A DNA stretch of 19,041 bases from Anaerolineales bacterium (GTDB taxonomy: Bacteria; Chloroflexota; Anaerolineae; Anaerolineales; VGOW01): positions 1-19,041 of the forward strand of contig CAKKQG010000238.1 in assembly GCA_919901875.1 (NCBI GenBank). The letters are read 5' to 3'. The translations under genes and the position numbers were made by a program. Under the pieces are notes generated by a model, which saw nothing but the letters and a program-made list of their open reading frames with translations, was not told where the DNA came from and did no database searches. Every line of letters starts with the position of its first letter. Position 1 is the first letter of the stretch. Positions 2,318 through 19,041 of this stretch are shown here, piece after piece.

Positions 2318-3292
2318 ATGTCTGTCTTAACCATGAGCAAAGCCCTTGCTCAAGCAATGTATGAAGAGATGGAACGCGATCCGAATGTCGTGGTGTTAGG
2401 TGAAGAGGTCGGCGCGCAAGGCGGCACCTACGGTGTGACCGCCGGACTGTTTGAAAAGTTTGGCAAAGATCGCGTGCGCGATACGCCGATCTCCGAAGGG
2501 GTGATCGTCGGCGCGGCGGTTGGCGCGGCGATGAACGGCTTGCGCCCCGTCGCCGAGATCATGGGAATCAATTTCGCATTTTTGGCGATGGATCAAATTG
2601 TGAATCACGCCGCCAAGATTCATTCGATGTTCGGCGGGCAATTTAGATGCCCACTGGTGGTGCGGACAACATCGGGCGGCGGCAAACAACTGGCGGCGAC
2701 TCATTCGCAAACGCCGGACGTGATCTTCGCCCACTTCCCCGGACTCAAAGTAGTGGCGCCGTCAACGCCTGCGGAAGCGAAAGCCCTGCTCAAAGCCTCT
2801 ATCCGCACCGACGACCCGGTGTTCTTCATCGAACACTCCACCATGTATTCCGAGCGCGGCGAAGTTTCCGACGATCCGAACTTCCTTTTGCCCATCGGCA
2901 AGAGCGACATTAAACGCAAAGGCAAAGATGTCACCATCGTCACCTATTCCAAAATGGTCAGCATCTCACTGAAAGCGGCGGCGGAACTTGAGAAAGAAGG
3001 CATTGACGTTGAGATCATTGACTTGCGGTCTCTGCGCCCGCTCGATCTCGATCCTGTTTTTGAATCGTTCAAGAAAACGAATCGCGCCGTGATCGTCGAA
3101 GAAGGATGGAAAACCTTCGGCATCGGCGCAGAAGTTGCGTCGCGCATCTACGAAGAATGTTTTGATTACCTCGACGCGCCGATTGAACGTGTAGCGCAAA
3201 AAGAAGTGCCACTGCCTTACAGCGCGGAATTAGAACGCGCCGCAATACCGCAGGTGAAAGATGTGATTGCGGCAGTGAAGAAAGTACTTTAG
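2318..3292 (+). CDS. pdhB: Pyruvate (or acetoin/2-oxoacid) dehydrogenase E1 component, beta subunit
   Basis: This 324-residue protein is the transketolase-like beta subunit that completes the E1 active site with pdhA. It begins with the family pattern TMSKALAQAMYEEMERDPNVVVLGEEVG. Glu30 and the Glu in DTPISE (residue 60) are in the positions of the conserved TPP-contacting acids. The C-terminal transketolase domain contains the expected DLRSLRPLD motif. Length matches AcoB/PdhB. It follows pdhA after an 85-bp repeat-filled gap; no good Shine-Dalgarno sequence is visible (TATTTGAAACT before the ATG), so translation may start weakly or be affected by the upstream hairpin. Confidence 0.88.
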   Translation: MSVLTMSKALAQAMYEEMERDPNVVVLGEEVGAQGGTYGVTAGLFEKFGKDRVRDTPISEGVIVGAAVGAAMNGLRPVAEIMGINFAFLAMDQIVNHAAKIHSMFGGQFRCPLVVRTTSGGGKQLAATHSQTPDVIFAHFPGLKVVAPSTPAEAKALLKASIRTDDPVFFIEHSTMYSERGEVSDDPNFLLPIGKSDIKRKGKDVTIVTYSKMVSISLKAAAELEKEGIDVEIIDLRSLRPLDLDPVFESFKKTNRAVIVEEGWKTFGIGAEVASRIYEECFDYLDAPIERVAQKEVPLPYSAELERAAIPQVKDVIAAVKKVL

Positions 3293-3295
3293 GTC

Positions 3296-3372
3296 AAACG
3301 TAATGCGTATTGCGTATTCCGTGATGCGTGATGCGTGGATCGAACTCACGAATCACGCATCACGTATCACGA
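3296..3372. repeat. Heptamer array with inverted arms between pdhB and pdhC
   Basis: A second heptamer array: GTAATGC, GTATTGC, GTATTCC, GTGATGC, GTGATGC, then the complementary arm ACGAATC, ACGCATC, ACGTATC. The arms pair over about 18 bases around the centre ATCGAACTC, a strong hairpin. The core heptamer differs from that at 2231-2312 although period and two-arm layout are the same. It ends just before the pdhC ribosome-binding site. Confidence 0.8.
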
Positions 3373-3390
3373 CAGTTTGGAGAAACACTC

Positions 3391-4665
3391 ATGCCTGAGT
3401 TCGTCCCCATGCCCAAGCTCGGCTTTGATATGGCAGAAGGTCGCCTGGTTCGCAAAGTTGTGCAAGAGGGTCAATCCATAAAAAAAGGCGAGATACTCGC
3501 CGAAGTAGAAACCGATAAAGCCACGGTTGAAGTAGAAGCCTATACCACCGGCACCGTCGTCGCCTGGCTCGTTGATGAAAATCAATTCGTCCCCATTGGC
3601 ACGCACATGGTGGTGATTGCCGCGCCGGGTGAACAAGTGGATGTTGCCGCACTCAAATCCCAAATCCCAAAACTTGTGGTGAGCGAAGTCGAACCATCCC
3701 AAAATCCCAAAGCCAAACTTCAAACTTCAAACATCCAACGTCCACGCGAAGCGTCCAATCTCCAATCTCCAATCTCTAGCTTCTTGCGAATCTCACCTAT
3801 CGCGCGACGCATGAGTGATGAATTAAAGATCGATCCACGATTGATCACAGGCACGGGACCGGAAGGACGAATCACCAAGAAAGATGTTGAAGCGTTCGCC
3901 AAAAGCGGCGGCGCGGCAACGGTGTTTGGAGTGGCGGCATCCGCGCCCTCACCGACTGCGGCGGCGGTTGCCGTCACCGCCGAAGATCGAATTGTCCCGC
4001 TCACCAAATTACGATCCGCTATCGCGCGGCGCATGTCCGAGAGCAAAACATCCATCCCGCATTTTTATGTGACAACTGAAGTGGATATGGGTGCGGTGAT
4101 CGAGTTGCGAAAACAGTTGAATGAATTAGTGAGCGAGGCGGAAAAAATTTCGGTCAATGATTTTGTTTTGAAAGCGGCGGCGCTGACCTTGCGCGACTAC
4201 CCGTATCTTAACGCTTCATTCAACGGTGATCATGTCATTCAACGCGGTCATATCAACATGGGCATCGCCGTTGCGGTCAGCGGCGGATTGCTGACCATTG
4301 TTGTCAAAGATTGCGACGTGAAATCAGTTAAAATGATCGCTGCCGAAGCCAAAGCAATGGCAGCGCGCGCCCGCGATGGCAAGGTGAAACCCAACGATGT
4401 GGAAGGTTCGACCTTCACCGTTTCCAATTTAGGAATGTTTGAGGTAGACTCTTTCACGGCGATCATCAATCCGCCTGAAGCAGCGATCCTTGCCGTGGGA
4501 GCGGCAAAAGAAGTTGCGGTCGTGAAGAATGGATCGCTGACAACAGGCTGGCGCATGAAAGCAACCCTCTCCGCCGATCATCGCGTGACGGATGGCGCGG
4601 AAGCGGCGCAATTCATGCAAGCCTTCAAGAAAAAACTCGAAGAGCCTCTTCGATTACTTATTTGA
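3391..4665 (+). CDS. pdhC: Dihydrolipoamide acyltransferase, E2 component
   Basis: This is a 424-residue E2 core that accepts the acyl group on a lipoyl arm and transfers it to CoA. Domains in order: lipoyl domain at 1-78 with the lipoylated lysine in ETDKATVE (Lys43); a linker; the peripheral subunit-binding domain at about 132-168 (ISPIARRM to TKKDVEAF); and the catalytic domain at about 197-424 with the active-site motif DHRVTDG (His397, Asp401). The start is the ATG with GGAG 8 bases upstream; an upstream in-frame ATG lies inside the heptamer array and is not used. Linker residues 97-131 are encoded by a 32-bp dispersed repeat plus a heptamer array, and differ from the usual Ala/Pro-rich E2 linker. 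A normal Ala/Pro-rich linker is present after the subunit-binding domain. Confidence 0.9.
   Translation: MPEFVPMPKLGFDMAEGRLVRKVVQEGQSIKKGEILAEVETDKATVEVEAYTTGTVVAWLVDENQFVPIGTHMVVIAAPGEQVDVAALKSQIPKLVVSEVEPSQNPKAKLQTSNIQRPREASNLQSPISSFLRISPIARRMSDELKIDPRLITGTGPEGRITKKDVEAFAKSGGAATVFGVAASAPSPTAAAVAVTAEDRIVPLTKLRSAIARRMSESKTSIPHFYVTTEVDMGAVIELRKQLNELVSEAEKISVNDFVLKAAALTLRDYPYLNASFNGDHVIQRGHINMGIAVAVSGGLLTIVVKDCDVKSVKMIAAEAKAMAARARDGKVKPNDVEGSTFTVSNLGMFEVDSFTAIINPPEAAILAVGAAKEVAVVKNGSLTTGWRMKATLSADHRVTDGAEAAQFMQAFKKKLEEPLRLLI
3679..3785. repeat. Composite repeat inside the pdhC linker
   Basis: Bases 3679-3710 are identical, in the same orientation, to 14492-14523. They are followed by heptamers CTTCAAA, CTTCAAA, CATCCAA, CGTCCAC, a GCGAAG bridge, then CGTCCAA, TCTCCAA, TCTCCAA, TCTCTAG. 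The same unit types occur at 4666-4832 and 12656-12730. The insertion is read through in frame and encodes residues 97-131 of E2. Confidence 0.85.
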
Positions 4666-4832
4666 GATTGGGGATTAGAGATTGGAGGTTAGAGATTGGA
4701 GATTAGAGATTAGAATCCAACTTCCAACTTCCAACTTCTAACTTCCAACTTCTAACTTCCAACTTCCAACTTCCAACTTCCAACTTCTAACTTCCAACTT
4801 CCAACTTCCAACTTCCAATTTCCAACATCAAA
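4666..4832. repeat. Long heptamer array after pdhC
   Basis: The first half has units GATTGGA/GATTAGA on the plus strand. The second half has about 16 units of CTTCCAA/CTTCTAA. The two halves are not exact complements but share the pattern GATTGGA versus TTCCAAC. The array fills the gap between pdhC and the next gene and ends about 5 bases before its ATG. No terminator with a T-run is visible. Confidence 0.85.
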
Positions 4833-4837
4833 CAACT

Positions 4838-5230
4838 ATGACAACAACAGCAAAAACTTGGTTTTACAACACGCCCGAAAACAATGCCTATCTTATCGGC
4901 GAGCGCATTCGCACTTCCTTGTGGGATGCGCGCTTTGGAAACATTTGGTTAGAGACCGCGCGAAGTGAAGCGCCTTATCTCATGCGCGGCACACTGCAAC
5001 ACACAGACGTTGAACTCGAATGGATGCCCAAACACTGGTGCATCCTGCGAACTAAGCCCGCCCACTCGTTGCTCTACGGCGGCGTCAAAAACATTTTGGG
5101 TTTCAGTGCAGTGTTCAAATACGAAACGCCCAACGGCTTCACCGCCTGGGAATGGCGTGTCGGTGACGCCAAAGAACGTTGGCAAGCGATTCAAGGCAAG
5201 CCGGAGTTTGGCAAGCTGGAGCAATTATGA
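4838..5230 (+). CDS. Protein of unknown function, 130 residues
   Basis: I do not recognise this protein. It is a soluble-looking 130-residue chain with many aromatic residues (WFYNTPENNAYL near the start, EWMPKHWC in the middle, FTAWEWRVGD near the end), two cysteines at most, and no signal peptide or membrane segment. Its stop overlaps the start of the response regulator (ATGA at 5227-5230), so the two are translationally coupled and probably work together. No Shine-Dalgarno sequence precedes the ATG; the bases upstream are heptamer repeat. Coding is supported by the open frame, the coupling and codon use like its neighbours. Confidence 0.7.
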   Translation: MTTTAKTWFYNTPENNAYLIGERIRTSLWDARFGNIWLETARSEAPYLMRGTLQHTDVELEWMPKHWCILRTKPAHSLLYGGVKNILGFSAVFKYETPNGFTAWEWRVGDAKERWQAIQGKPEFGKLEQL

Positions 5231-15567: not shown

Positions 15568-16575
15568 TTACCTTTCCAACTGCCTGAAGTGCATTACATA
15601 TTCAAACTGAAACGTCCACAAATAATCCACCAGCGCCCACGTTTGCTCTTCGGTAAAAATCGGCCCCCAATACGGCATCCCTGTCCCCATACCGCCGCGA
15701 ATGATCTTGCCTTGCAGCAGCGCCGGACTTGCGCCGAGCATTTGCGATGAATCGGTGAAGTCCACCGGTGATTTAGTGTTGTGACCAAATTCCATTTGCG
15801 CGCTCGAATCTTTTTTCGTGAGTGACGCCGCCATTACCCCATCGCCCTTGCCACTCTCCCCATGACACGCGGCGCAATTTTGGGCGTATAACTTTTGCCC
15901 TTGCGCCAATTTTTCTTTGGTCGTGTTCGCTTGCCAAACGAAGGCGACCAGATTCCAAATTTCATCATCAGGTAGAGACGTTGCGTGCAACGTCTCTACA
16001 AAAGCATCGGACGGGCTATGCGTCAGGTAATACTCGCGCGTTAAAAAATTTGCGGGGATGTTAGTAATGGATTTGGCGACGGGTTTTTGCGGTGGGATAT
16101 TTTTAGCGGGATGTGGATCGTCAAGATCAATGTTCAACTTGAAATACAACGGTGACACCGCCGATGCCTGCGCCGCCGGTTCGCCCTTCACCTCAATCGT
16201 GCCGCGCATCCGCCAGTGACTCAACCCACACCAGCGCGTGCAATAAAAAACATATTTGCCCGGGCGATCAAACGTCAGCGTGGTTTCAACCATTTGCCCG
16301 GCGGGTAGATCGAGCGCGGGCGTATCACTTTGCCCAATGGCAAAACCGTGCTGCACATCATCGGAGATCAAACGCAAACGGATCGGTTCGCCGACTTTGG
16401 CGGTGAGGTTCGCCGGAGTGAAACCGCCCGCTTCGGCGATGCGGGCGTGAATCTCAATGGACGAATCGCGCGACATGATCCAACGCCCGATCAGGATCGC
16501 CAATGGGATGCCGACGAGAATCCCGATCACGAACAACCGCGCGCCGCTTTCGGCTTTCAACCAACGAGCAGCCAT
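15568..16575 (-). CDS. CuA cupredoxin-cytochrome c fusion (cytochrome oxidase subunit II-like)
   Basis: This 335-residue protein has one N-terminal membrane anchor (12-32), an extracytoplasmic cupredoxin domain with a full CuA set (His76, Cys112, Cys116, His120, Met123) and a C-terminal cytochrome c domain (CAACH at 234-238, Met300 as likely sixth ligand). It would pass electrons from c-type heme to CuA, or the reverse. Unlike true oxidase subunit II it has a single anchor, and no subunit I is in the window. Residues 205-214 (EIWNLVAFVW) look like the last helix of a further cytochrome c domain with no heme site. Residues 193-201 come from an inserted palindrome. The start has AGGG 5 bases upstream and overlaps the preceding gene by 19 bases. 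Confidence 0.85.
   Translation of the reverse strand: MAARWLKAESGARLFVIGILVGIPLAILIGRWIMSRDSSIEIHARIAEAGGFTPANLTAKVGEPIRLRLISDDVQHGFAIGQSDTPALDLPAGQMVETTLTFDRPGKYVFYCTRWCGLSHWRMRGTIEVKGEPAAQASAVSPLYFKLNIDLDDPHPAKNIPPQKPVAKSITNIPANFLTREYYLTHSPSDAFVETLHATSLPDDEIWNLVAFVWQANTTKEKLAQGQKLYAQNCAACHGESGKGDGVMAASLTKKDSSAQMEFGHNTKSPVDFTDSSQMLGASPALLQGKIIRGGMGTGMPYWGPIFTEEQTWALVDYLWTFQFEYVMHFRQLER
15972..15999. repeat. Perfect 28-bp palindrome inside the CuA-cytochrome gene
   Basis: GTAGAGACGTTGC (15972-15984), a 2-base centre, and its exact complement (15987-15999). On the minus strand it is translated in frame as VETLHATSL, between SPSDAF and PDDEIW of the cytochrome protein. It shares GTGCAACGTCTCT with the recA leader hairpin. 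Confidence 0.9.
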
Positions 16576-17867
16576 AACATCCCTAACGTAATCACGAAAC
16601 AAAATGCAATCACGCCCTGCGCGTTGGCTTTAATTTGTTCGCCAATTTGCATCGCCACTTGGCTCGACCAAGCTAACCCGATGATCAACGCCGCCGCTTG
16701 CAGAGTCGGCGTCACCTGAGTCAAGAAGGGAGTCCATTTGAAATTCACTGTGCCGAAAAGATTCCATCCCCAACCCAATGGATCAGAAATCGCGGGCAAT
16801 AGATATGAAGCGTTGGCGAAAACGAAGGAGAGGCTGAAGGCGATCCACGCCAGCAAACCGAGTGGGATGAGGGCGTAAGCGAAGTTGATGAATGATTTGC
16901 GATTGAATGAGGTGGCAATAAAAAAAGATGCGGGTAATGCGCCGAAGATAAAAACTAAAAATGTAATGGCATACAACGCCCAGTCATTTGTGCCGACGGC
17001 ATACGCCGCGGCTTTGAGCTGCCCCCACGAACCCAGCATCACAGCGGAATAAGTCATCGCGCTGCCCAACATGATGAAGGCTTTGAACGCCTCATCCAGT
17101 TTGCGCCCGTGTGGTTTGATCAGATCATCGCCGATGGGACGAATTTGAATCGCCACGTTGTCGTGCGGGCAAGTTCGCAAACATTCCATGCACGTCCCGC
17201 AATAGGTGTTCTTGCTGAGACCGCCCGGATACACTTGCCACGGACAACCATACCCTTCGGCATTTCCGTTATAGCAACTTTTTTCGGTGTGAGCCGCGCA
17301 CACGGCAGAATCTTTGACGCGCACTTCTATCGGCGCGACTTGCGAATACAAACCGATGAAGCCACCCACGGGGCACAGGTAACGACAAAACGCGCGTCGC
17401 TCGAAGATGAGACTCGCGGCAAAGGCGACGAAGAGAAAAGCGATGAGGACGATGGACGTGATATTGGGTTGAGTCAACACCACGGCACTGAACAAAGCGA
17501 CAAGCGCAAACGAAATGTTTTGTAACCAGATGTTGCGAAACTTGTTGTGCCAACGCAGGTTGAGTCCGAACCCTTTGCCTGTTGGTTTAAGTATCGCTCC
17601 ATGTTGAAGCCATTCACCGGCAAGCGGGATGGGACAGATGCTGCACCACGCTCGCCCGAAGAGCGGCACGGCGATCAACATCAACAACGCCCACCAGCCG
17701 ATCCACACAAAGACAATGCTGAAGTTGTGATTGCCTACCGGTGTGCCGACGAGTCCGGCGATGATGGCGAAGATGAATCCACCTAACGCAATCGCTTGAA
17801 TAATAAATTGTGGCAAGCGATTCTTGAGGAGAGGTTGGAGGAGGGGAGTGAGGTCGTAGCGAGTCAT
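16557..17867 (-). CDS. NapH/NosR/CcoG-like membrane polyferredoxin
   Basis: This 436-residue integral membrane iron-sulfur protein probably moves electrons across or along the membrane to the exported copper proteins encoded next to it. It has several transmembrane helices (about 20-40, 50-70, 115-155, 262-275, 287-375, 395-435). Two CxxxCP/CxxCP motifs (CSICP at 75-79, CRYLCP at 161-166) are typical of the NosR/NapH/RdxA family. A ferredoxin site follows: YCGTCMECLRTCP with Cys223, 226, 229 and 233, and further Cys190, 198 and 208. Its ATG overlaps the cupredoxin stop by 4 bases (ATGA). The second half with extra helices is longer than in NapH. NosR-like function for nitrous oxide reduction is possible, but no nosZ is visible. 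Confidence 0.82.
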   Translation of the reverse strand: MTRYDLTPLLQPLLKNRLPQFIIQAIALGGFIFAIIAGLVGTPVGNHNFSIVFVWIGWWALLMLIAVPLFGRAWCSICPIPLAGEWLQHGAILKPTGKGFGLNLRWHNKFRNIWLQNISFALVALFSAVVLTQPNITSIVLIAFLFVAFAASLIFERRAFCRYLCPVGGFIGLYSQVAPIEVRVKDSAVCAAHTEKSCYNGNAEGYGCPWQVYPGGLSKNTYCGTCMECLRTCPHDNVAIQIRPIGDDLIKPHGRKLDEAFKAFIMLGSAMTYSAVMLGSWGQLKAAAYAVGTNDWALYAITFLVFIFGALPASFFIATSFNRKSFINFAYALIPLGLLAWIAFSLSFVFANASYLLPAISDPLGWGWNLFGTVNFKWTPFLTQVTPTLQAAALIIGLAWSSQVAMQIGEQIKANAQGVIAFCFVITLGMLWLLVG

Positions 17868-18409
17868 GTTAAGTCAGACTTCCGAAGTTGCACAAACCGC
17901 AAAGACTTCGGAAGTCTGGATACGACAATCAATACCAACACCGCAAACCCAACTGCCTGCCACCACAACCAATTTGTTCCCACCTCTAATTTGCCGATCA
18001 TAAAAGGATGGAGCGCGCCGCACGTTACCGAACAACGAAAACGAAACGAGCCCGATTGATTAGCGATGAAAGTGAGTTTCGCCGTTTGCCCCGGGTCGGC
18101 GACCACGTTGAGATCGTAGCCATCAATGTAGAGTCCATGCACCACATCGGTTGAAGAAAGTTCAATGGTGAGGCGATCACCTTGATTCACTTGGATGGCC
18201 GGTGGCGTATATTCAAAGCTGCGGGCTTCAAGGCGATAGGTGCGATCCGTCGGCGGCGCGGCGGCAACAAAGGTCGGCAGGAAGAGGATCGCTAACGCGG
18301 CGAGTATCAGTAAGACAAGTTGCCAACTTGTCTTTGTCCTACTGACAAGTTGCCAACTTGTCCTACGGGATGTTGGATGGTCCATACTTGGAGTATGTGC
18401 TATCCACAT
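17864..18409 (-). CDS. Membrane-anchored CuA-like cupredoxin
   Basis: This 181-residue exported protein has a signal/anchor helix at 31-50, a cupredoxin domain at about 55-145, and a C-terminal membrane helix (148-164). The ligands His91, Cys126, Cys130, His134 and Met137 (CSVTCGALHPFM) form a complete CuA-type pattern, so a binuclear copper electron-transfer site is expected. The N-terminal stretch 17-32 (TSWQLV twice) is encoded by two palindromes and does not look native. The start is uncertain: the ATG at 18407-18409 overlaps the upstream gene by 47 bases; another Met is at codon 9. The last 17 residues, SRLPKSLRFVQLRKSDL, are encoded by a third inverted repeat. Confidence 0.82.
   Translation of the reverse strand: MWIAHTPSMDHPTSRRTSWQLVSRTKTSWQLVLLILAALAILFLPTFVAAAPPTDRTYRLEARSFEYTPPAIQVNQGDRLTIELSSTDVVHGLYIDGYDLNVVADPGQTAKLTFIANQSGSFRFRCSVTCGALHPFMIGKLEVGTNWLWWQAVGFAVLVLIVVSRLPKSLRFVQLRKSDLT
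17875..17918. repeat. Inverted repeat at the 3' end of the cupredoxin gene
   Basis: CAGACTTCCGAAGT (17875-17888) is the exact complement of 17905-17918, with a TGC/GCA pairing further in. It is translated as the C-terminal tail of the cupredoxin and ends just before the start of the polyferredoxin gene. Confidence 0.8.
18310..18366. repeat. Tandem pair of palindromes at the PCYCGC-cupredoxin junction
   Basis: AAGACAAGTTG with its complement (18312-18334, 1-base centre) and GACAAGTTG with its complement (18344-18362). The block begins GTAAG and ends CTAC. The CTAC end supplies the TAG stop codon of the PCYCGC gene (18363-18365), while on the same strand the cores are read as TSWQLV in the cupredoxin frame. 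Confidence 0.9.
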
Positions 18410-18800
18410 AATTTTTGATCTCGCCCGGACTCTTGCCCTCGTTGAGTAAACGCATCGTGTCTTGCGTAATGTCTACGCAGATCGAACAGCCGACGGCGTG
18501 CAGATCGTATTCGATCTTGCCGTTCTGCTCACCGGCGACGTAGCACGAATAATTTGAAGTGTGTCCCACTTTGCCGCAACCGCAGTAACACGGAATTTGT
18601 TTCATTACGTCGGGGTTGGCGACGGCGAATTGATATGCTTGCTGCACGGTGACCGGCGATGTCTTCACCTCTTGCGGCATTGAGTCGAGCGGTGCCATTT
18701 TCAATTTGTGATCGTCGGTAGCCGCACCGCATCCAGCTGTGAGAGTGCTAATGAAAACCAAGGTAAGCGTCAGGAAAAACCAGAAACGTTTATTGGGCAT
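18363..18800 (-). CDS. PCYCGC-motif lipoprotein
   Basis: This 145-residue protein has a lipoprotein signal peptide with lipobox TAGC (Cys24), a spacer, and a cysteine/histidine-rich domain: PCYCGC at 70-75, His80, Cys86 in NYSCYV, then HAVGCSIC (His101, Cys105, Cys108). The PCYCGC family is widespread in Gram-positive bacteria and Chloroflexota. Its function is not established; the residue set suggests metal (copper) binding or thiol chemistry outside the membrane. It follows the UGA-containing gene by 14 bases and overlaps the cupredoxin start, so it belongs to the same operon. Its TAG stop is provided by the adjacent palindrome. Confidence 0.88.
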   Translation of the reverse strand: MPNKRFWFFLTLTLVFISTLTAGCGAATDDHKLKMAPLDSMPQEVKTSPVTVQQAYQFAVANPDVMKQIPCYCGCGKVGHTSNYSCYVAGEQNGKIEYDLHAVGCSICVDITQDTMRLLNEGKSPGEIKNYVDSTYSKYGPSNIP

Positions 18801-18814
18801 GAGGCGATCTCTTT

Positions 18815-19041
18815 TTACGGCACCCAGTTCGAGAGAAGAGTGACGGTGCGATCTTTTTGCGTGGGATCGTTAGTCACCAGATGAACACTGAAATTATGTT
18901 TGCCCGCCATGCTTGGACCGTGCATTCCAAATTTGACAAAGATGATGGTGCGCTCGCCGGGTTGAAGGGTCATCGAACCGATGACCGGAGTAGGCGGTCA
19001 ACACCCCTCGACGACTTCGACGTAAGGTGTCTCCGCGAAGC
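18815..19041 (-). CDS. DUF1573-like exported protein, probable selenoprotein (partial)
   Basis: Only the last 74 residues are in the window, and the gene continues past the edge. The minus-strand frame reads ETPYVEVVEGC, then UGA (18998-19000), then PPTPVIGSMTLQPGERTI and onward through HNFSVHLVTNDPTQ to the TAA at 18815-18817. The part after UGA resembles the beta-sandwich of DUF1573-type proteins (LQPGE, VHLVTNDP). The frame is coherent on both sides of the UGA, and a hairpin with a G-first loop begins 11 bases after it. I infer that UGA encodes selenocysteine next to Cys, giving Cys-Sec-Pro-Pro. A plain stop mutation or base error remains possible. It is the first visible gene of the copper/iron-sulfur operon. 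Confidence 0.7.
18968..18986 (-). promoter_or_regulatory. SECIS-like hairpin after the in-frame UGA
   Basis: On the minus strand GGTCATCG (18986-18979), loop GTT, and CGATGACC (18975-18968) form a perfect 8-bp stem. There are 11 bases between the UGA and the stem and 19 between the UGA and the loop. Bacterial SECIS elements need a short stem-loop about 16-37 nt after UGA with G at the start of the loop and often GU; this hairpin meets those points. A competing 6-bp hairpin (18982-18987 with 18995-19000) would include the UGA itself. Confidence 0.6.

Follow-up and report, generated by a model that had tools for sequence, protein, structure and literature searches.

A predicted Chloroflexota selenoprotein with a DUF1573-related fold and a Cys-Sec pair, encoded beside CuA-type proteins

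An in-frame UGA and its counterparts in related genomes

Near the edge of a contig from an Anaerolineales bacterium, a protein-like frame is interrupted by a UGA codon directly after a cysteine codon; does this UGA end a gene, or is it read as selenocysteine (Sec), and what kind of protein would result? The window, meaning the whole stretch of DNA analysed (19,041 nucleotides), is a single contig (G000:C238) of a 2.63 Mb assembly that is 64% complete. Read on the minus strand, the frame has no stop between the contig edge (first full codon at 19039-19037) and a UGA at 18998-19000, and it continues beyond this codon to a TAA terminator at 18815-18817, exactly as given in the preliminary description of the locus. 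The features of the gene are as follows.

18815..19041, minus strand: 3' portion of the predicted selenoprotein gene, continued at its 5' side on contig C327 of this assembly (55-base identical overlap with the window end)
18998..19000, minus strand: predicted Sec-encoding UGA (83 UGA and 8 Cys among 91 homologous loci; UGA in 8/8 loci outside the class)
19001..19003, minus strand: invariant Cys codon (TGT) immediately 5' of the predicted Sec codon, motif Gly-Cys-Sec-Pro (columns G105, C106, [U/C]107 and P108 invariant in 84 sequences, L037 numbering)
18968..18986, minus strand: SECIS hairpin of 8 bp with loop GUU (18976-18978), UGA-to-loop distance 19 nt (conservation, covariation, geometry and energy)
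18896..18925, minus strand: codons of a Met/His stretch, M-H-x3-M-x3-H, with M132, M137 and H141 invariant (L037 numbering; conservation in the alignment, copper-ligand role proposed)

The window frame translates as FAETPYVEVVEGC-U-PPTPVIGSM...NWVP. The start of contig C327 is an exact repeat of the final 55 window bases, UGA included, and this contig supplies the missing N-terminus; translated separately, it yields a 106-aa ORF that starts with Met, carries a hydrophobic stretch near its N-terminus and ends at the Gly-Cys preceding the UGA. A complete gene of 167 aa is held by the relative L037, which is 85% identical to the window over the matched 74 residues. Coding conservation was seen both upstream and downstream of the UGA, in keeping with the preliminary description of a frame that is protein-like on both sides.

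When 396 Anaerolineae genomes were searched with the UGA read through, 78 matched, giving 103 rows, and 92 loci were read individually. One of these (L105), represented by two rows for a single split copy, was dropped before counting, and the UGA column of the remaining 91 read-through loci contained UGA in 83, Cys in 8 and no other state. Every one of the 83 Sec loci had the motif GCU. One UGA locus, L038, is a duplicate (its contig is that of L014 and L126), so the distinct UGA genes number 82: L037, and 81 others that come from 64 Anaerolineae genomes among the 396. The 11 most distant rows (L108-L118) stand outside the 83/8 count; among them L116 also has GCU, L109, L111-L115 and L118 have CGC or CSC, and L117 is the G214 gene with CTC. 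A separate scan of genome contigs for the gene returned only 2 loci. Beyond the class, each of the 12 listed rows from other Chloroflexota classes contained one TGA, and the loci read there showed GC-UGA followed by Pro in 8/8. The dropped locus is itself a second copy of the gene in its genome (G213:C1, about 4125314-4125534); a frameshift seems to have split it, and its first piece still contains the UGA.

Protein databases gave a matching picture. The preliminary description had proposed that homologues with Cys at this position would support Sec, and a search with a Cys form as query found Gly-Cys-Cys in 77/77 homologues (72 by pattern, 5 by eye). Among the 120 matches listed of 412 in a profile search, 118 were new, of which 55 had an internal GCCP, 2 were of CGC type and 61 ended exactly at Gly-Cys, the position of the UGA, as products of about 104 aa. 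With the piece from the window as query, 8/8 matches were 51-52 aa proteins covering the post-UGA part, one of them the window's own and three beginning at a Met downstream of the UGA. Since databases hold the Gly-Cys-ending and post-UGA pieces separately, gene callers evidently split this gene in two.

The protein alignment retained 84 of 88 prepared rows. A quick tree of these 84 members, calculated with the motif and hairpin columns excluded, required at least four Sec/Cys changes, three of them forced by starred branches. Two contigs each carry both versions of the gene, about 0.5 kb apart on G129:C380 (L014 and L050) and about 4 kb apart on G247:C338 (L093 and L099), possibly through duplication with Sec/Cys divergence.

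SECIS hairpin and selenocysteine machinery

The hairpin reads GGTCATCG-GTT-CGATGACC in DNA (GGUCAUCG-GUU-CGAUGACC in RNA) from 18986 down to 18968 and starts 11 nt 3' of the UGA. Published criteria for bacterial SECIS elements are a loop of 3-9 nt with a G in the first two bases, a stem of 4-16 bp, a distance of 16-37 nt from the UGA and a minimum free energy of -7.5 kcal/mol or lower (PMC13188914, Fig. 2 legend), and the window hairpin agrees with each of these at 8 bp, GUU, 19 nt and -10.5 kcal/mol. The perfect 8-bp stem, its GUU loop, its start and its loop distance within the bacterial range had all been reported in the preliminary description, and all were confirmed.

Across the 81 ungapped Sec forms, a mean of 7.0 of 8 pairs was present at the fixed place, compared with 5.58 in synonymous codon shuffles, the highest of 200 shuffles reaching 5.88. 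Six of the eight pairs were present in 77-81 of these 81 sequences, the outermost in 35/81 and the innermost in 50/81. The eight Cys forms averaged 2.25 pairs, each with 1-3 of 8, and thus lack the hairpin. In an alignment of 80 distinct Sec sequences, from which L038 and two loci with one extra codon each (L077 and L095, whose hairpins are still visible one codon further 3') were left out, 87.3% of cells were paired. Cells changed on both sides numbered 84 against 35.3 in shuffles, and the covariation score was 0.360 against 0.207, with 0/500 shuffles as high in either case; pairings slid along the sequence scored lower, the best (+3) at 0.286 with 69.2% still paired. Two of five pair measures, namely both-side-changed pairs and further pair types, were not above shuffles (197/500 and 399/500 as high). 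Across the family the loop opens with G or AG, 18-19 nt from the UGA. As an isolated stem, the hairpin reached -7.5 kcal/mol or lower in 62/83 Sec forms, the other 21 missing this value as bare stems, compared with 0/8 Cys forms and 882/13922 other codon positions of the same genes. With its fixed position, its covariation and its absence from Cys forms, the hairpin has the characteristics of a SECIS element.

In the window's own genome, selA (371.1 bits, profile positions 1-280 of 455), selB (318.9 bits, 2-326 of 581) and selD (365.3 bits) all scored over their curated cut-offs, the selA and selB matches reaching contig ends as partial genes. The selD gene has its own in-frame TGA at CAG-U-AAK, which we take to be the known Sec site, and it thus serves as an internal positive control; this selD (L042, G000:C142) sits inside a 935-aa open frame, far longer than selD alone and perhaps a fusion. 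The best tRNA-Sec match in this 64%-complete assembly, 72 nt on contig C239, scored 41 bits against a cut-off of 47 and was not accepted, and scanning seven loci, C327 and the contigs with sel genes for tRNAs found none. The check for sel genes suggested in the preliminary description thus turned up selA, selB and selD, selC alone not being found. In other UGA genomes, tRNA-Sec scored at least 61.9 bits in 40/40 searched (of 63, mostly the more complete, with the same-genus G340 included).

The gene selA was over its cut-off in 56/64 UGA genomes, and of the remaining eight, six had a selB match with an E-value no higher than 4e-91; G354 showed only a partial selA (143 bits, under the cut-off), and G128 neither selA nor selB over cut-off. 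Since selB was over its cut-off in 314 of the 396 Anaerolineae genomes, it is too widespread to serve as a discriminator and was rejected as one, and co-occurrence at the level of genomes carries little information. Among the five genomes with a Cys form only, selA was found in 2; G326 had no selA and no tRNA-Sec match over cut-off, and the best tRNA-Sec match in G288, at 50.6 bits, was far below those of other genomes. A strong tRNA-Sec match (76 bits) in G222 accompanies Cys gene forms only, with no selA and no selB over cut-off; this genome has possibly lost Sec use, or contigs are missing.

Two explanations would dispense with selenium altogether. The UGA could be an ordinary Cys codon turned into TGA by mutation or base-calling error, and its place at the contig edge of a draft assembly and the frameshift-like split of the further copy in G213 lend this something; against it, the TGA recurs in 82 distinct genes, those of the single-contig assemblies G027 and G351 among them, as well as in the 8/8 loci of other classes, which excludes the base-calling error named earlier as a refuting possibility, the frame is kept on either side of the UGA, and the tree has four or more Sec/Cys changes, so that a pseudogene or error is scarcely credible. 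Any other recoding, whether a genome-wide reassignment of UGA (to Trp or Gly, for example) or readthrough by a near-cognate tRNA, would equally leave an open frame across the UGA. Yet UGA ends 8 of the 19 listed ORFs of the window and 20 of the 83 Sec genes of the family, where it is an ordinary stop and thus speaks against a reassigned code, while Cys is the only alternative residue at the site and a SECIS-type hairpin accompanies the UGA forms and 0/8 Cys forms, leaving this explanation very improbable as well. The gene, judged from these comparisons, almost certainly encodes a selenoprotein in which the UGA is read as Sec.

Operon partners and neighbourhoods

Downstream of the gene on the same strand, four operon partners were assigned by profile and neighbourhood.

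18363..18800, minus strand: exported PCYCGC-motif protein (PF13798), Cys form
17864..18409, minus strand: membrane-anchored cupredoxin with the CuA-type motif CSVTCGALHPFM (PF00116, PF13473)
16557..17867, minus strand: NapH-like membrane 4Fe-4S protein (PF12801)
15568..16602, minus strand: CuA-type cupredoxin (CTRWCGLSHWRM) fused to cytochrome c

Both CSVTCGALHPFM and CTRWCGLSHWRM presumably fit the CuA ligand pattern. In order to describe this arrangement in relatives, 22 neighbourhoods were chosen, mostly the best-matching (21 distinct, L038 and L126 being one contig; 3 Cys forms), and the PCYCGC partner was found in 18, the CuA-cytochrome c partner in 16 and the NapH-like partner (at least 47% identity) in 15. 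Some of the misses, such as those in L037, L123 and L133, fall at contig ends, and in others, such as L120 and L138, the absence is real. The usual order is PCYCGC, CuA cupredoxin, NapH-like, CuA-cytochrome c and selenoprotein; the selenoprotein comes first in the window and in L037, and in the Cys forms the gene lies between the cupredoxin and the NapH-like gene. Across genomes, the NapH-like partner (E-value of 1e-90 or lower) was present in 42/69 with a GC[U/C]P gene versus 23/327 without (Fisher p 4e-22, kinship ignored), which leaves 27 of the 69 with no close NapH-like partner.

The slot beside the CuA-cytochrome c gene can be filled by a DUF1573 gene of CxC type, as in G299 (CSC), G244 (CSC), G214 (CTC), G378 (CGC) and G335 (CGC) (L148-L152). 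G244 and G214 also have a second DUF1573 gene, of CGC type, on the far side near the PCYCGC gene.

Several other genes of these neighbourhoods were considered. The PCYCGC partner was rejected as a second selenoprotein, with Cys in 20/20 occurrences of the pattern that would permit Sec. Sequence clustering placed metal P-type ATPase genes in 7/22 neighbourhoods; of five ATPases scanned, those of L131, L125 and L135 were far over the copper-ATPase cut-off, that of L137 just missed it, and that of L138 passed it but scored higher as a cadmium type. Near the operon in L136, at 3038-5191, a beta-propeller is fused to multicopper oxidase domains and weakly matches the clade III lactonase-type NosZ (140 bits, cut-off 700), and a second, distant NapH-like gene (29% identical) occurs in L037 at 1732-2721, upstream of the selenoprotein gene.

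Sco, PCuAC and TlpA are copper-delivery proteins for CuA sites, and the present family resembles them in its proposed role, exported location and Cys plus Met/His as putative ligands, but belongs to a different sequence family. Sco1/SenC (PF02630) passed its cut-off in 30 of the 36 genomes selected, comprising 18/20 with the gene and 12/16 without (one marginal). As Sco1/SenC is present in 18 of the 20 tested genomes with the gene, the selenoprotein is not a simple Sco substitute, and replacement of Sco was rejected.

Relationship to known DUF1573 proteins and a proposed copper role

The preliminary description had called the gene DUF1573-like, which is upheld by profile evidence. A PF07610 (DUF1573) match with an E-value of 0.001 or lower was obtained for 70 of 84 members, placing the family with DUF1573, and hhalign aligned the family profile to CxC-type DUF1573 with 98.7% probability. 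Scanned singly against the PF07610 cut-off of 26.1 bits, L010 was above it (38.7 bits) and L037 (22.7) and L034 (19.2) were below, and the 74-aa window fragment alone gave no PF07610 match. In the profile alignment, Sec-Pro appears as a two-residue insertion relative to the CGC of ordinary DUF1573. The domain fold, as modelled, is Ig/ASH-like and DUF1573-related; a test for the thioredoxin (alpha/beta) fold was negative. The model suggests that Met132, Met137 and His141 lie at the same end of the domain as the Cys-Sec pair.

Bacterial selenoproteins as a kind and the DUF1573 fold are already known. DUF1573 is a listed selenoprotein family with the Sec motif UGC (PMC13188914, Table 1), and the motif has also been given as UxC (PMC2398784). 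A 2026 review that catalogues 119 families and subfamilies of prokaryotic selenoproteins has DUF1573 with UGC only, the string 'Chloroflex' is absent from its main text, and its section 7 treats the same domain with another Sec position as a distinct subfamily (PMC13188914). Since GCU lies at another position than the listed UGC, this rule makes the present proteins a new subfamily. The earlier suggestion of a probable new selenoprotein is therefore supported, with one correction: it forms a new subfamily of a fold that already had a known selenoprotein. As far as the literature shows, what is new is where Sec sits (GCU), the occurrence in Chloroflexota and the operon with CuA proteins. The titles and abstracts searched in the open-licence literature contained no earlier report of a GCU DUF1573 selenoprotein; one study that reportedly screened groundwater genomes could include the gene among its candidates.

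CxC-type Chloroflexota DUF1573 proteins without Sec share the fold family and, in G244, G299, G214, G378 and G335, the operon slot, but have CGC, CSC or CTC with no motif UGA, and their aligned members lack the M-H-x3-M stretch. A vicinal Cys-Sec pair likewise occurs in the CU-motif selenoproteins CopZ-type form 2, SaoL, SaoC, HgcA and MbdU, which are different families. Several CU-motif selenoproteins are named after metals or organometals, and none in the review's table is a DUF1573 protein (PMC13188914).

One alternative is that the family is simply a further member of the known OS_HP2/DUF1573 selenoproteins (PF07610, NF041425). The two groups share the Ig/ASH-like domain family and a Sec near Cys in a short motif, and besides the hhalign result, NF041425 (OS_HP2) matched 58/84 members with an E-value of 0.001 or lower (best 1.4e-11). 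Scanned singly, though, one of three proteins had no match and the others reached 26.9 and 24.5 bits, far below the cut-off of 100, which does not place them in OS_HP2. The listed motif also differs, with UGC there and GCU here, where Sec follows Cys and lies inside the two-residue insertion against CGC, and the present family is further distinguished by its invariant Met/Met/His and its operon partnership with CuA proteins; set apart by listed motif and profile scores, it is improbable as a plain member of the known family. A different alternative grants the selenoprotein and sees in it a plain thiol-selenol oxidoreductase without copper binding, which would reduce, for example, the CuA cysteines or the PCYCGC partner. 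Mammalian thioredoxin reductase, with its GCUG end, offers a precedent for such redox chemistry; in favour stand the invariance of the vicinal Cys-Sec pair and the two-thiol CxC relatives in the same operon slot, and the ferredoxin-like membrane partner could provide electrons. Redox chemistry alone, however, needs none of Met132, Met137 and His141, which are as invariant as the Cys-Sec pair, and the modelled fold is Ig-like rather than thioredoxin-like, so that a purely redox protein seems rather unlikely.

Taken in a wide sense, an exported copper- or thiol-related role for the selenoprotein is very probable from sequence comparison. The vicinal Cys-Sec pair and invariant Met/His residues of an exported protein, encoded next to a ferredoxin-type membrane protein and two CuA proteins, together suggest that it would supply CuA sites with copper or reduce their thiols. 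A role specifically in copper handling or CuA maturation is a reasonable possibility that falls a little short of probable, and the residues of the Met/His stretch are proposed as putative copper ligands.

In the mechanism that we propose, the SECIS hairpin 11 nt past the UGA would direct SelB and Sec-tRNA, and Sec would be inserted after the conserved Cys to give Gly-Cys-Sec-Pro. Support for this SelB-dependent insertion at a SECIS is as strong as sequence evidence can give. The product would be a membrane-anchored, exported Chloroflexota selenoprotein of Ig/ASH (DUF1573-like) fold, whose Cys-Sec pair, with the invariant Met/Met/His, may bind Cu(I) and/or keep thiols reduced, and which might thereby help the two adjacently encoded CuA-type proteins to acquire or retain copper at their sites. 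More tentatively still, the Ig-fold vicinal Cys-Sec with its invariant Met/His could be a copper-transfer site that assembles CuA centres within a five-gene Chloroflexota electron-transfer system, with Sec, Cys-Cys and Cys-x-Cys versions exchanged in one slot.

The predicted selenoprotein is present in 64 of 396 sampled Anaerolineae genomes, and databases keep it as two disconnected fragments. Its family offers a natural experiment in which the exchange of Sec and Cys is paired with the gain or loss of an RNA hairpin, and it would provide a testable link between selenium and the assembly of copper sites.
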